Origin: Roseateles subflavus
GTDB taxonomy: Bacteria > Pseudomonadota > Gammaproteobacteria > Burkholderiales > Burkholderiaceae_C
Direction of reading: 5' to 3'
NCBI RefSeq assembly: GCF_030285365.1
Contig: NZ_JASVDS010000003.1
Span: 1 to 64,000 of the forward strand
Length of the DNA stretch: 64,000 nt
Both the position numbers and the translations under genes were made by a program. Below the pieces are notes generated by a model. The model was not told where the DNA came from. It saw nothing but the letters and a program-made list of their open reading frames with translations, and did no database searches. Positions 9,611 through 58,014 of this stretch are shown here, piece after piece (position 1 is the first letter of the stretch; every line of letters begins with the position of its first letter).

Positions 9611-10129
9611 ATGGCAAAGTTTCAACCCCGCGTGCAGGACGAAGGTCGCGACGACGGCATGCGCGAGAAGATGATCGCGGTGAACCGCGTGACCAAGGTG
9701 GTGAAGGGCGGCCGTACGCTGTCGTTCGCAGCACTGACCGTGGTCGGCGACGGTGATGGCCGCATCGGCATGGGCAAGGGCAAGGCGAAGGAAGTTCCGG
9801 TCGCCGTGCAGAAGGCCATGGAGTCGGCTCGCCGCAACATGGTCAAGGTGAACCTGCGCAACGGCACGATCCACCACAACGTGGTGGGCGAGCACGGTGC
9901 TTCGCGCGTCATGATGGCTCCGGCTCCCGCCGGTACCGGCGTGATCGCTGGCGGCCCGATGCGTGCTGTCTTCGAAGTGATGGGCGTGACCGACATCGTG
10001 ACCAAGAGCCACGGTTCGACCAACCCTTACAACATGGTTCGCGCCACCCTGGACGCCCTGAAGCGCTCGACGACGGCCGCTGAAGTCGCTGCCAAGCGCG
10101 GCAAGACCGTTGAAGATATCTTCAACTGA
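9611..10129 (+). CDS. rpsE: 30S ribosomal protein S5
   Basis: A 172-residue S5 with the N-terminal double-stranded-RNA-binding domain ([31 protein letters not shown]-like) and the decoding-fidelity C-terminal domain. Three start codons lie in frame (TTG 9602, ATG 9605, ATG 9611). The last is chosen because AAAGGA at 9596-9601 is 9 bases from it, while the others are too close. The start MAKFQPR matches homologues. Confidence 0.97.
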
Positions 10130-18685: not shown

Positions 18686-19450
18686 ATGTCTGAATCGACT
18701 ACTCAGCCGGGCGCTGACCAGCAAGCGCAGCAAGCAGCCTGTGCCGAGCAGCTCAAGGCCCTGTTCCCTGCCTTGTTCACGGGGGCGCCCAAGCCGGTGA
18801 AGCTGCGCATTCAGGCGGATATCCAGGAGCGCGCGCCCGGCCAGTTCAGCAAGCAGCAGTTGTCTGCGTTCCTGCGTCGCCACACCGGCAGCACGGCCTA
18901 TCTGAACGCGGTGATCAAGTCGACGCACCGTTTTGACCTGGATGGACAGGAAGCCGGCGAGATCACGGCCGAGCACAAGCAGGTGGCCCGTGACGAGCTG
19001 ACCCGCCGACGCGCCAAGCACCAGGAGCGGCAGGCGCAGGAAGAGGTCGCGCAGCGTCAGCGCTTCGAGCTGCTGCGTGCCTTCGAGACCACGACGCTGA
19101 CGCGCGCCAACTTCTGCGCACTCAAGGGGCTGGCGGAAGACCAGCTGGACGGCCTGCTGGCCCTGGCCCGGGAAGAGGCGAAAGCCCGTGCCGCCCGTCC
19201 CCGCGCCCAGGAGGGCGGTCGCCCCGGCGCTGGAGATCGACGTGGTGCACCGGGTGCCGATCGCCGCGGCCCGCGTCAGGGACGTCCGGACGAGCGCCGC
19301 CACGGCCGTGGCGGCCCCGCGAAGGGCGCCTCCCCCAAGGTGCGCCCGCCCGCGGCTGGTGGCGATGCTGCGGTCCCTGCAGCGGCCACCGCAGTGACGG
19401 CCGAACCGACAACCGCGCCCGCCGCGGTGCAGGACGCCCAGGAAGGTTGA
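18686..19450 (+). CDS. proQ: ProQ/FinO-domain RNA chaperone
   Basis: A 254-residue protein. The ProQ/FinO fold spans about residues 10-115 (CAEQLKALFPALFTGAPKPV, FSKQQLSAFLRRHTGSTAYL, RFDLDGQEAGEITAEHKQVA). It binds sRNAs and mRNA 3' ends at structured elements. A charged Lys/Gln/Glu helix follows, then a low-complexity tail rich in Ala, Pro, Gly and Arg from about residue 165, which likely gives nonspecific RNA affinity. The ATG at 18686 begins MSESTTQPGADQQ; longer frames run into the terminator region. A CACAAT (18652-18657) may be its -10. Confidence 0.93.
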   Translation: MSESTTQPGADQQAQQAACAEQLKALFPALFTGAPKPVKLRIQADIQERAPGQFSKQQLSAFLRRHTGSTAYLNAVIKSTHRFDLDGQEAGEITAEHKQVARDELTRRRAKHQERQAQEEVAQRQRFELLRAFETTTLTRANFCALKGLAEDQLDGLLALAREEAKARAARPRAQEGGRPGAGDRRGAPGADRRGPRQGRPDERRHGRGGPAKGASPKVRPPAAGGDAAVPAAATAVTAEPTTAPAAVQDAQEG

Positions 19451-54728: not shown

Positions 54729-55517
54729 ATGCCCGTCTCTCGCCCTCCGTCTGCGCCTGCCGATCTGTCCCGTCGTCGTCTGCTTCAGGGCCTGATGGTG
54801 GCGGGCGCCGGTGCCTGGCCGCGCGTGGGCTGGAGTGCCTCGGCGTCCTCGCCCGACGCCCTGATGCAGGTGCCGCTGGCTGTCGGTGACCACGTCAACC
54901 GGGATTTCGTCCTGCCCCTGCTGAACCTGCTCGCGCAGGCCGCCGGCTGGCGTTGGGACCTGCAGTTCGCCCCCATGGCCCGCGTGCTGGCCCTGCTGGA
55001 GCGGGGTGACTGCCTGGCCTTCGGCCTCGGTCGCACGCCCGCCCGTGAAGGGCTCCTGGCGTTCAGCGACCCGCTCTTCAGCTCGCGCGTCTGGCCCGTG
55101 TACCGCCGGGGCCGGGCGCTGCAGGTACGCAGTCTCGCCGACCTGCAGGGGCGGACCGTCTGCCTCAGCCGGGCCGCGAGCTACGGCGCCCAGGTGGACG
55201 CGGCCAAGGGCCGCGATTTCCGCGTCGAGTATGCCGACGGCGACCCTCGTAACCGGCTGCGCATGCTGCTCGCCGACCGCTGCGACGTCGCGCTGATGAC
55301 GCATCGCAGCGCCGATCCTGCGGCGCTGGAGCGGCGTCTGCGGGAGGAGGGCGGGCTGCCGCTGCAGGTGCACATCGGCCCCGTGCCGCTGGTCAGCGAA
55401 CCCGTTCACATCGCCGGCGCGCTGGGCAGTCCGTGGCTGCGCGTGCTGCCGGCCCTCAACGCGGGTATGCGCCGCCAGCAGCCGGCCATCCAGGCCCTGG
55501 TCGACAGCTCGCTGTAG
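54729..55517 (+). CDS. Tat-exported solute-binding-like protein
   Basis: A 262-residue protein with a twin-arginine signal (LSRRRLLQGLMVAGAGAWPR). The mature part resembles the family 3 extracellular solute-binding fold: an N-terminal lobe (QVPLAVGDHVNRDFVLPLLN), LLERGDCLAFGLGRTPAREG and LADLQGRTVCLSRAASYGAQ. No ABC permease or ATPase is nearby. It may be a stand-alone binding protein or a sensor. Family assignment is by eye and moderate; the ligand is unknown. Confidence 0.75.
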   Translation: MPVSRPPSAPADLSRRRLLQGLMVAGAGAWPRVGWSASASSPDALMQVPLAVGDHVNRDFVLPLLNLLAQAAGWRWDLQFAPMARVLALLERGDCLAFGLGRTPAREGLLAFSDPLFSSRVWPVYRRGRALQVRSLADLQGRTVCLSRAASYGAQVDAAKGRDFRVEYADGDPRNRLRMLLADRCDVALMTHRSADPAALERRLREEGGLPLQVHIGPVPLVSEPVHIAGALGSPWLRVLPALNAGMRRQQPAIQALVDSSL

Positions 55518-55535: not shown

Positions 55536-56555
55536 TCAGGACTTCTGCGCGCTGCGCACGAGCGCCTCGATGCGCGGCGTCATGTTCGTCGGCACCAGCT
55601 CCACTTCCTGGTGGGCGCGGGCGAAGACCCGGAAGAGCTCGTCCGTGAAGCCGTGGCCCACGTCCTCCACGCCCTCGAAGCTGACCTCGGCCCGCTTGAA
55701 CTGCGGCAGCCGGGCGGCCACCCGCCGCGCCTGCGCCCGTGAATCCAGCGCCTGGCCCGGCCCGGCCACCAGGCGCAGGTTGATCTTGGTCTGGTCGAAC
55801 TCGATGCCCGTGCCGTCGGTGCTCCAGGCCTCCAGCACCTGGTCCAGCGTGCGGGAGCTGTCCAGTGCGATGGACATGTAGATCGAGCTGCCCTGTCGCG
55901 GCAGCGGACGCCCCGGCTGCCAGCCCGTCGATTCCCAGGCGCGGCGCTGGAAGGCCGTCCCGTTGGCGTGGATGTCGAACACGTCGGCGAGCTGCGAGCT
56001 GAAGAAGAGCCCGCGGCCGGTGTGCATCTGCGGCTGGCTCGTCAGGCGGCCTTTGGACAGCTCCAGCATCGCGTGCTGAGGGTCGGCGATGTCAAAGGAC
56101 TCGCAGATGCGGTTGAACACGCCGCAGCCGTCGTCCGAGACCAGCAGCTGCACGTGGCTGGGCGTCTGGCGCAGCGAGACCGTGACGCTCGTGCCGCCGC
56201 TGTGGTCCACCGCGTTGTTCACCAGTTCCGTGAAGCCGTGCTGGACCATGCGGGCGACATGGCGGGGCAGGGCGAAGTTGGGCGCGAAGTCCCGCTGCCA
56301 GGGCAGGTCCTCCTGCAAGCCATGCAGCGAGTAGGTCCGCACCACCTGCCGCAGCACGCCCGGGCCATAGACGGGACGGCGCGTGCTGCCTTCACGTGTG
56401 AGCCACTGGGCATCGACCAGCCGGCGCAGGGCCGACAGCACCGCGCGGTGGCTGGCCCCGGTGCGCTCCTCGACGTGCGCCGGCAGATCCAGCGAATGCT
56501 CACGGGCTGCCGCGGTGATCCACAGCGTGAGATGGTCGACGGACAGTCGGGTCAT
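55536..56555 (-). CDS. Winged-helix / HATPase / DUF4325 regulator
   Basis: A 339-residue protein of three parts. A winged HTH (about residues 1-75; HVEERTGASHRAVLSALRRL) is followed by a GHKL-type ATPase domain with N box (HGFTELVNNAVDHSGGTS), G1 box (VSDDGCGVFNR) and G2 box (GRGLFFSSQLADVFDIHANG). The end (about 250-335) looks like DUF4325, a STAS-like domain (VSFEGVEDVGHGFTDELFRV). There is no histidine phosphoacceptor or membrane region, so it is not a normal sensor kinase; it recalls anti-sigma kinase plus STAS pairs in one chain. GGAG is 5 bases before the ATG. A 16-bp palindrome is upstream. Confidence 0.83.
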   Translation of the reverse strand: MTRLSVDHLTLWITAAAREHSLDLPAHVEERTGASHRAVLSALRRLVDAQWLTREGSTRRPVYGPGVLRQVVRTYSLHGLQEDLPWQRDFAPNFALPRHVARMVQHGFTELVNNAVDHSGGTSVTVSLRQTPSHVQLLVSDDGCGVFNRICESFDIADPQHAMLELSKGRLTSQPQMHTGRGLFFSSQLADVFDIHANGTAFQRRAWESTGWQPGRPLPRQGSSIYMSIALDSSRTLDQVLEAWSTDGTGIEFDQTKINLRLVAGPGQALDSRAQARRVAARLPQFKRAEVSFEGVEDVGHGFTDELFRVFARAHQEVELVPTNMTPRIEALVRSAQKS

Positions 56556-56627
56556 GAATGCTCCATGAGAGGGCTGCCAGTGTCGCCGCAAGCCCCCGCA
56601 GGCCAGGCGCGCAACAGCGGGTGCAAG

Positions 56628-56643
56628 GGCGGACCGGTCCGCC
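56628..56643. promoter_or_regulatory. 16-bp perfect palindrome with a repeated half-site
   Basis: GGCGGACCGGTCCGCC is perfectly self-complementary. It is 73 bases upstream of the HATPase/DUF4325 gene (minus) and about 300 bases before fba. The half GGCGGACC appears again at 56670-56677. The remainder of the 394-base gap (56556-56949) holds GC-rich non-coding sequence and a TAGAAT (56825-56830) that may be the fba -10. Confidence 0.6.
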
Positions 56644-56949
56644 GCTTGGGATCGGCGCAACACACCAGTGGCGGACCAGTTGCGAGCCTAGCCCGCAGAC
56701 CGCCCCTTCGCAAGCGACCCAACCCGGCCCCGGCGCCCCCGTGAGCGCCACCCCGGCACCCGACTTGCGGGGGCCGGCGCGAGGCTTGCCGGGGTCGGGC
56801 GCCGGTTTTGGCGGCCCTCGCCGCTAGAATCCCGGGCAGTTACGGCGCGGTTACATGCCTATGCTCAAGCCTGCCCGGTGATCCGGCCGGGCTCCCGGGC
56901 CTGCCGCCAGTCGCGCCAGCAGGATTTTTCACTTCCTCGGAGTTTCATC

Positions 56950-58014
56950 ATGGCCCTCGTTTCCATGCGCCAGTTGCTGGACCATGCCGCCGAGCACGGC
57001 TACGGCATCCCGGCCTTCAACGTCAACAATCTGGAGCAGGTGCAGGCCGTGATGGCCGCCGCTGACGAGGTCGGCGCCCCGGTGATCCTGCAGGCCAGCG
57101 CCGGCGCCCGCAAGTACGCCGGCGAAAGCTTCATCAAGCACCTGATCCAGGCGGCCGTCGAGGCCTACCCGCACATCCCCCTGGTGATGCACCAGGATCA
57201 CGGCACCAGCCCCAAGGTCTGCTCGGGCGCCATCGACCTCGGCTTCGGCTCGGTCATGATGGACGGCTCGCTGATGGAAGACGGCAAGACCCCGTCGTCC
57301 TTCGACTACAACGTGGACGTCACCCGCAAGGTCGTGGAGATGGCCCACAAAGTCGGCGTGACCGTCGAGGGCGAGCTGGGCTGCCTGGGCAACCTCGAGA
57401 CCGGTGACGCCGGCGAGGAAGACGGCATCGGCGCCGCCGGCAAGCTGGACCACAGCCAGATGCTGACCGACCCGGAAGAGGCCGCCACCTTCGTGAAGGC
57501 CACGCAGCTGGACGCCCTGGCCATCGCCATCGGCACGAGCCACGGCGCCTACAAGTTCTCGCGCAAGCCCACGGGCGACATCCTCGCCATCAGCCGCGTG
57601 AAGGAAATCCACAAGCGCATCCCGAACACCCACCTGGTGATGCACGGCTCGTCCTCGGTGCCCGCCGAGCTGCTGGCCATCATCAACCAGTACGGCGGCC
57701 AGATGAAGGAAACCTACGGCGTGCCCGTCGAGGAGATCCAGGAAGCCATCAAGCACGGCGTGCGCAAGATCAACATCGACACCGACATCCGCCTGGCCAT
57801 GACCGGCGCGGTGCGCAAGTTCCTGTTCGAGAACCCGGACAAGTTCGATGCCCGCGAGTGGCTGAAGCCGGCCCGCGAGGCCGCCAAGCAGGTCTGCAAG
57901 GCCCGCTACCTGGAATTCGGCTGCGAGGGCCAGGCCGCCAAGATCAAGCCCCTGACCCTTGTTCAGGTGGCCGAGGCCTACGCCCGTGGCGAACTGGCCC
58001 AAGTCGTGCAATGA
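56950..58014 (+). CDS. fba: Fructose-bisphosphate aldolase, class II
   Basis: A 354-residue zinc aldolase of glycolysis and gluconeogenesis. The start [20 protein letters not shown] is typical of the Calvin-cycle/betaproteobacterial form. Metal and catalytic residues are in [13 protein letters not shown] (H81, D83, H84), with [14 protein letters not shown] and [16 protein letters not shown]. The ATG at 56950 follows CCTCGGAGTTTCATC. A strong terminator follows. Confidence 0.97.

Follow-up and report, generated by a model that had tools for sequence, protein, structure and literature searches.

The window considered here, a stretch of 64,000 nucleotides of Roseateles subflavus DNA, carries a gene whose product appears to join a DNA-binding part, an ATPase and a STAS-like part, with a perfect palindrome a short way upstream. 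A preliminary description of the locus took this palindrome, together with a repeated half-site, for the operator of an autoregulatory protein. This raises the question whether the three parts really occur in one chain, whether the palindrome is an operator, and at which sites a protein of this kind might otherwise act.

One chain joins a predicted winged helix, a GHKL domain and a STAS-like domain

The gene and the parts of its product are placed as follows.

55536-56555, minus strand: coding sequence of the wHTH-GHKL-DUF4325 protein (P0001), 339 amino acids, ATG at 56555
56361-56534, minus strand: N-terminal winged helix (wHTH), residues 8-65, from the AlphaFold2 (AF2) model and a MarR_2 match (E 0.008)
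55857-56351, minus strand: GHKL domain, residues 69-233, with PF02518 and PF13581 above cut-off
55539-55844, minus strand: C-terminal DUF4325 (STAS fold), residues 238-339, from a PF14213 match and a separate AF2 model

The Pfam search proposed in the preliminary description placed both HATPase_c (residues 102-192; 36.9 bits, cut-off 26.4) and DUF4325 (PF14213; residues 275-327; 39.3 bits, cut-off 23) above their cut-offs; Pfam describes the latter as a family of unknown function. MarR_2 matched residues 8-57 with 16.7 bits, below its cut-off of 27, and the protein is not assigned to the MarR family. Among the 17 family members scanned (window protein included), MarR_2 matched at E ≤ 0.01 in 10, with a best value of 3.1e-5, and DUF4325 did so in all 17. 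The coding sequence opens with M(T/A)RL in most aligned clade orthologues.

The full-length AF2 model, built from 57 sequences, had a mean pLDDT of 92.6 and a pTM of 0.88. Its N-terminal region takes up the DNA-binding fold that had been supposed for it, a winged helix in which helices 13-19, 24-32 and 36-48 are followed by wing strands 52-56 and 61-65, with block pLDDT values of 94-97 across residues 11-70. The best structural match of the GHKL part was SpoIIAB (1til_E; Z 14.7, rmsd 2.4, 132 aligned residues), with RsbW just behind (Z 13.8), and the nucleotide-pocket residues E110, N113, N114, D141, G143, G145, G180 and G182 were invariant in the orthologue alignments. A full-family profile run against solved chains matched histidine-kinase GHKL domains. 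Against the RsbA-type anti-sigma factor model NF041045 (NCBIfam) the protein scored 29.5 bits, far from the cut-off of 210.

Modelled alone with AF2, the DUF4325 part (pLDDT 86.9) resembled RsbV (6m36_H; Z 8.9, rmsd 2.2, 86 aligned residues), RsbS (Z 8.2) and SpoIIAA (Z 6.8-7.6). Foldseek returned weak E values for this model (best 0.027), and when the DUF4325 sequence profile was compared with solved chains the best E value was 0.42, which we took as chance. Because no sequence match to a solved STAS domain was found, the STAS register used here is an inferred one. In this register, the phosphosite expected where the second STAS helix begins is G-(H/Q) in 31 sequences, with no Ser or Thr, and the sole invariant Ser in these sequences, S272, stands before helix 1. 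If the register is right, G-H or G-Q at the usual phosphosite argues against simple phosphorylation of the protein's own STAS domain there.

SpoIIAB and RsbW kinases and their STAS partners SpoIIAA and RsbV are separate proteins and are not known to carry a DNA-binding domain; the window protein fuses both kinds of fold to a wHTH. Domain matches, AF2 folds and the invariant nucleotide pocket together indicate that the three-part architecture is right. One chain joins three parts, as the preliminary description had it: a putative DNA-binding, a kinase-like and a STAS-like one. The fusion exceeds chance, being kept across a whole family.

The upstream palindrome is not conserved

56628-56643, no strand: perfect palindrome GGCGGACC|GGTCCGCC (full sequence GGCGGACCGGTCCGCC), judged to be no conserved operator
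56657-56686, minus strand: genus-conserved block with the half-site at 56670-56677, 29 of 30 columns invariant in three congeners

Palindrome and half-site are both present where they had been described, and 72 bases separate the palindrome from the ATG at 56555. Perfect palindromes of at least 16 bp occur six times in the window (shuffled mean 2.9), and when the 400-bp intergenic region was shuffled 2000 times, 53 of the shuffles contained one. In the window GGCGGACC is present 11 times where 6.55 copies would be expected, a count reached by 5 of 100 shuffles; the palindrome exceeds chance only weakly. In the genome, the exact 16-mer is present as a single copy, plus one one-mismatch copy elsewhere (C17:359995) that ends 38 bp before the ATG of a lysine/alanine-rich reading frame, with which we saw no link. 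Copies with up to three mismatches numbered 255 per strand, not above the reversed control (370). Longer perfect palindromes are also found in the window, of 18 bp at 10109-10126 and of 20 bp at 19296-19315.

Upstream of other same-clade loci the palindrome did not occur (0 of 88, or 0 of 83 after five duplicates were dropped), and none of these 88 had any perfect palindrome of this length up to 230 bp from the start. The same held for seven further clade loci (L013 and L015-L020; L016, judged by length, is on the same contig as L091), which are left out of the 88-locus count and of the clade repeat count given below. The 88 include Pelomonas sp. BJYL3 and Mitsuaria sp. WAJ17, in which the protein is 98% identical to that of the window and the palindrome is broken. 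Across three congeners, 11 of 16 palindrome columns were invariant, as were 161 of 230 in the upstream region and 104 of 129 in the leader. With the palindrome absent from the clade loci, an outcome that the preliminary description had itself named as refuting its reading, broken in congeners and of a size that is not rare, we dropped it as an autoregulatory operator; it is probably a species-level accident.

The half-site at 56670-56677 is conserved in the genus only: all eight of its columns were invariant in the three congeners, but outside the genus its exact sequence was found, among the loci counted, only in L050 and at another place. A genus-level site at 56657-56686 is possible, a family-level palindromic operator is not. 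In gene orientation, the window species has half-site copies at -122 and -80, 42 bp or twice 21 apart; this spacing may be the remnant of an array or chance.

Probable promoter and neighbouring genes

56685-56690, minus strand: probable -10 element TAGGCT (TAGGCT/TAGTCT in three congeners)
56708-56713, minus strand: probable -35 element TTGCGA (TTGCAG in one congener), with a 17-bp spacer
56950-58014, plus strand: divergent gene, putatively encoding a class II fructose-bisphosphate aldolase (fba)
54729-55517, plus strand: convergent SBP_bac_3-like protein with twin-arginine leader, Pfam matches below cut-off

The -35/-10 pair is kept in the genus, is recognisable by eye in many Roseateles/Paucibacter loci, and is probably the promoter of the regulator gene. 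If the pair is real, transcription starts close to the half-site and the leader transcript includes the palindrome. Many, but not all, Rubrivivax, Aquabacterium and Rhizobacter loci (among L074-L104) show, by eye, CTTTTC..GCTCAAG and then CCGACACTG in the last 100 bp or so before the start, so that the gene probably has another promoter there.

In 70 of the 80 clade loci compared, the regulator gene and fba are divergent. Next to the -10 element TAGAAT of the fba promoter lies a direct repeat, GTTACGGCGCGGTTAC (11-bp period, 56837-56854), that resembles a site through which a response regulator or similar protein acts on fba. The strict form of this repeat was found in 7 of 120 relatives, all with the regulator gene. 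A looser form, scored at 30 fba loci, stands before fba in 9 of the 10 genomes that have the regulator gene and in 8 of the 20 that lack it, so that the repeat is not specific to genomes with the regulator gene. Kinship may explain this difference. Regulation of fba by the window protein was set aside, without a decision either way, as the repeat also occurs in genomes that lack the gene. On the other side, the neighbour presented earlier as a Tat-exported binding-like protein is indeed a convergent gene, but it stays below the Pfam cut-off for both models, with 21.4 bits for SBP_bac_3 (26.4 required) and 14.1 for TAT_signal (22.7 required). An SBP-like relative stands beside the regulator gene in only 14 of 80 clade loci.

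Direct repeats 21 or 22 bp apart precede the gene in the wider family

In the wide family, meaning loci outside the window's clade, an 8-mer (one mismatch allowed) is repeated 21 or 22 bp apart in the 130 bp before the gene at 43 of 47 loci. Shuffles of these 47 upstreams gave a mean of 4.4 and a maximum of 9, and the same test on neighbouring-gene upstreams (from 32 of the 47 loci) was positive in 17 of 172. The best period within 14-30 bp was 21 or 22 in 42 of the 47, and of the wide loci fetched after the spacing had first been noticed, 14 of 17 have such repeats. The wide set omits L126, L130 and L156 (incomplete), L136, L137 and L141 (duplicates) and a further match to which no locus belonged; L135, which shares its taxonomic family with the window, also stands outside it. 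A second collection, from viral contigs, had the repeat in 21 of 25 distinct loci, some of them near-copies (22 of 26 before deduplication; shuffle mean 3.0, maximum 6); two of its 28 loci came without upstream DNA, and among the other 26 one upstream was identical to another. Some of these viral upstreams are AT-rich and individually weak for repeats. The four wide loci that fail are L021, L140, L143 and L149, and even L143 has three TTTAC units 22 bp apart. By a stricter extension score, 31 of the 47 were significant at 0.05 and 16 were not.

We assigned the motif labels, and the consensus of the units, by eye, which left 9 of the 47 wide rows unlabelled. The four motif classes so defined comprise 33 loci with two to six units, and 60 of the 72 gaps between units are 21 or 22 bp; the others are 9, 11, 13, 23, 29, 32 and 34 bp, with 11 and 32 bp found three times each. 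Units have up to 9-15 identical bases and include TTGTCGAT and CCTTTAAGAAA, which are not promoter-like. Since 21-22 bp is also the distance between -35 and -10 elements, part of the repeat signal could be promoter. In the CCTTTAAGAAA subfamily (L115, L119, L122 and L124) the direct repeats end in an inverted copy, TTTCTTAAAGG, directly before the start codon. L133 and L134 have TTGACAA units with some 11-bp gaps beside those of 21-23 bp, as if single-helical-turn arrays had been partly filled in.

Repeat motifs follow the protein subfamily

TTGTCGA pairs numbered eight, in four of five genomes, and TTTAAGAAA pairs five, in four of four genomes; all of them lie at the gene. The looser TTTACA pairs numbered 21 in eight of nine genomes, with 12 at the gene and nine elsewhere, the latter equal to the reversed-pattern control (nine). 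When the labels (five motifs plus the window's clade, with 9 rows unlabelled) were placed on a tree of 67 proteins they required 8 changes, compared with 33.1 in shuffles, a test that proves only that labels cluster. TTGTCGA, TTATAA and TTTAAGAA took one change each, TTTACA and TTGACAA four each. The TTGTCGA motif was found across five taxonomic families, and two genomes of one genus (g94; L022 and L152) have different protein subfamilies with different motifs. The motif tracks the protein subfamily, not the host. Binding by the encoded protein itself would fit these repeat facts best.

Distribution of the family and relation to known systems

At E ≤ 1e-20 the search gave homologues in 19 of 120 relatives, and at E ≤ 1e-30 in 31 of 369 class, 22 of 300 order and 7 of 398 phylum genomes, where each count includes the window's own genome and the samples overlap. 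The one-chain regulator family is patchily distributed, and its window member is clade-resident and mostly fba-linked. Around 32 wide-family loci no common neighbour family occurred in more than three; among the matches listed for their 108 neighbours, no PADLOC model had more than two and no Pfam family more than three (Pfam tally from the best 25 of 173 families, ORFs called mechanically), so that a STAS gene may still lie next to some of these loci. Beside some family members there is a single gene that matches a defence model (a BrxC, a SoFic) or an integrase. Membership of a defence system was rejected, PADLOC having returned 0 families for the window protein and no PADLOC model exceeding two hits among the neighbours' listed matches. 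On IMG/VR viral contigs we found 28 family loci (L223-L250), so some members may travel on proviruses; one wide-family query gave no match in plasmid and phage collections.

CapK/CapS, the closest system found in the literature, is alike in that HTH, STAS and GHKL domains, with folds of the SpoIIAB/SpoIIAA kind, control a promoter (EMBO J 2026, PMC13373217). According to that paper, CapK is an HTH-STAS-GHKL kinase activated by ssDNA, and CapS, encoded directly downstream, is a STAS-wHTH autorepressor with a conserved phosphoacceptor Ser/Thr opening its second STAS helix; the pair stands mostly beside an immune operon and uses palindromic TTAA sites (PMC13373217). The word DUF4325 does not occur in its main text. 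CapK/CapS are thus two proteins with palindromic sites, whereas the family studied here is one chain with direct repeats in its wider members. The order in the window protein is wHTH-GHKL-STAS, and its gene is flanked by the convergent SBP-like gene and fba instead of capS. Since both domain order and neighbour differ, the window protein is not CapK, although by analogy it may work like a fused CapK/CapS. No CapS or VapS entry was among the structure matches listed for the GHKL and DUF4325 comparisons.

SspH of Streptomyces, a stand-alone HATPase that affects transcription, is not close, having the HATPase domain only; the text on it has neither STAS nor 'DNA-binding' (PMC9137472). A literature search outside which most subscription journals lie returned nothing on DUF4325 function, on such arrays or on the wHTH-GHKL-DUF4325 architecture; in it the name DUF4325 occurred in two papers and the accession PF14213 in none. 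The suggestion that this mode of control is little-described is softened by CapK/CapS (PMC13373217, published in 2026).

A model of autoregulation and its alternatives

We consider it probable that this one-chain wHTH-GHKL-STAS family is autoregulated through a helically phased repeat array, which was lost in the window's clade. The wHTH would most likely bind two to six short direct repeats and thereby repress the protein's own promoter; most of these repeats lie 21-22 bp or two helical turns apart, and a few one or three turns. With a spacing of about two turns, protomers lined up head-to-tail could cover the -35/-10 region from one face of the DNA. The likely switch would be the GHKL-STAS module, with nucleotide state or a bound partner altering the assembly and freeing the promoter. 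For the family, binding, repression, kinase activity and a signal are what we infer. Autoregulation, as first suggested, is in this sense likely for the wider family in view of the upstream repeats, but not with the palindrome as its operator. More tentatively, and with clearly less confidence, the family might be a mobile, self-contained switch whose single polypeptide serves as sensor, as ATP-driven kinase module and as repressor, sits head-to-tail on the phased array of its own gene with an operator code for each subfamily, and uses the abundance set by this loop as an output on host targets via GHKL-STAS.

If an anti-sigma-type kinase, its STAS partner fold and a DNA reader are joined, the product would be a repressor that is soluble, depends on ATP and needs no phosphorelay. 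The family also offers a test bed, with a candidate operator before its own gene that is almost unique in the searched genomes and differs between subfamilies; operator position, near-uniqueness and subfamily difference would make specificity and ATP control testable with one gene and one promoter.

That the 16-bp palindrome and its half-site form the operator of the window protein seems very improbable. The palindrome is perfect, intergenic and present in one exact genomic copy, and the half-site is fully conserved in the genus, with copies separated by twice 21 bp; yet none of 88 other clade loci has the palindrome, it is broken in both congeners and conserved no better than background, palindromes of its size are not rare in the window, and in the wider family it is direct repeats that are candidates for the operator. 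A little less remote, though still quite unlikely, is the idea that the wider family's tandem repeats belong to the promoter or are bound by some other factor of the host. A spacing of 21-22 bp suits -35 and -10 elements, and TTGACA and TTTACAAT resemble promoter hexamers. However, units of 9-15 identical bases in two to six copies, the non-promoter-like TTGTCGAT and CCTTTAAGAAA, whose pairs occur nowhere else in the searched genomes, and a motif that tracks the protein subfamily even inside one genus speak against it.

Another reading makes the family a one-chain counterpart of CapK/CapS, with kinase and repressor in one polypeptide that DNA damage (ssDNA) would free from DNA. The domain types are the same three, CapS represses itself and CapK is activated by ssDNA (PMC13373217), and the BrxC, SoFic and integrase neighbours and the viral-contig loci would suit it; but domain order differs, no neighbour family recurs in more than three of 32 loci, and the expected STAS phosphosite has no Ser/Thr (in the inferred register), and we hold this reading to be unlikely. 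It is a somewhat stronger possibility, if still a doubtful one, that in the window's clade the protein is a partner-switching kinase or anti-sigma-like factor that no longer regulates in a sequence-specific way, its wHTH drifting as a relic or serving for contacts with other proteins. SpoIIAB and RsbW as best structural matches fit this, as does the finding that the CapK HTH was dispensable in the assays of that study (PMC13373217); the repeat array was not found in the clade, and the recognition helix is poorly kept next to invariant GHKL and STAS residues. Against it, the wHTH is retained in the aligned clade sequences and predicted with high confidence, and losing one operator type is not the same as losing DNA binding.

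For the window's clade we return to the probable loss of the repeat array. The clade forms a single group in the protein tree (support 100/100), and the branch that leads to it is long, with 1.02 changes per column. Its upstreams show no excess of 21/22-bp repeats (10 of 84, shuffle mean 8.4), the 84 being those kept of 89, the window's own included, after L006, L007, L010, L012 and L014 were dropped as duplicates of L025, L026, L062, L042 and L069. In recognition helix 36-48 only L46 is invariant in 57 sequences, whereas GHKL and STAS have many invariant residues. Given the absent excess, the variable recognition helix and the conserved GHKL and STAS parts, the clade has probably dropped this operator type, and as no operator is evident in it, the family mechanism cannot simply be carried over to the window protein. 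What selection appears to have kept in the window's clade is, we think, the signalling core, above all GHKL-STAS.
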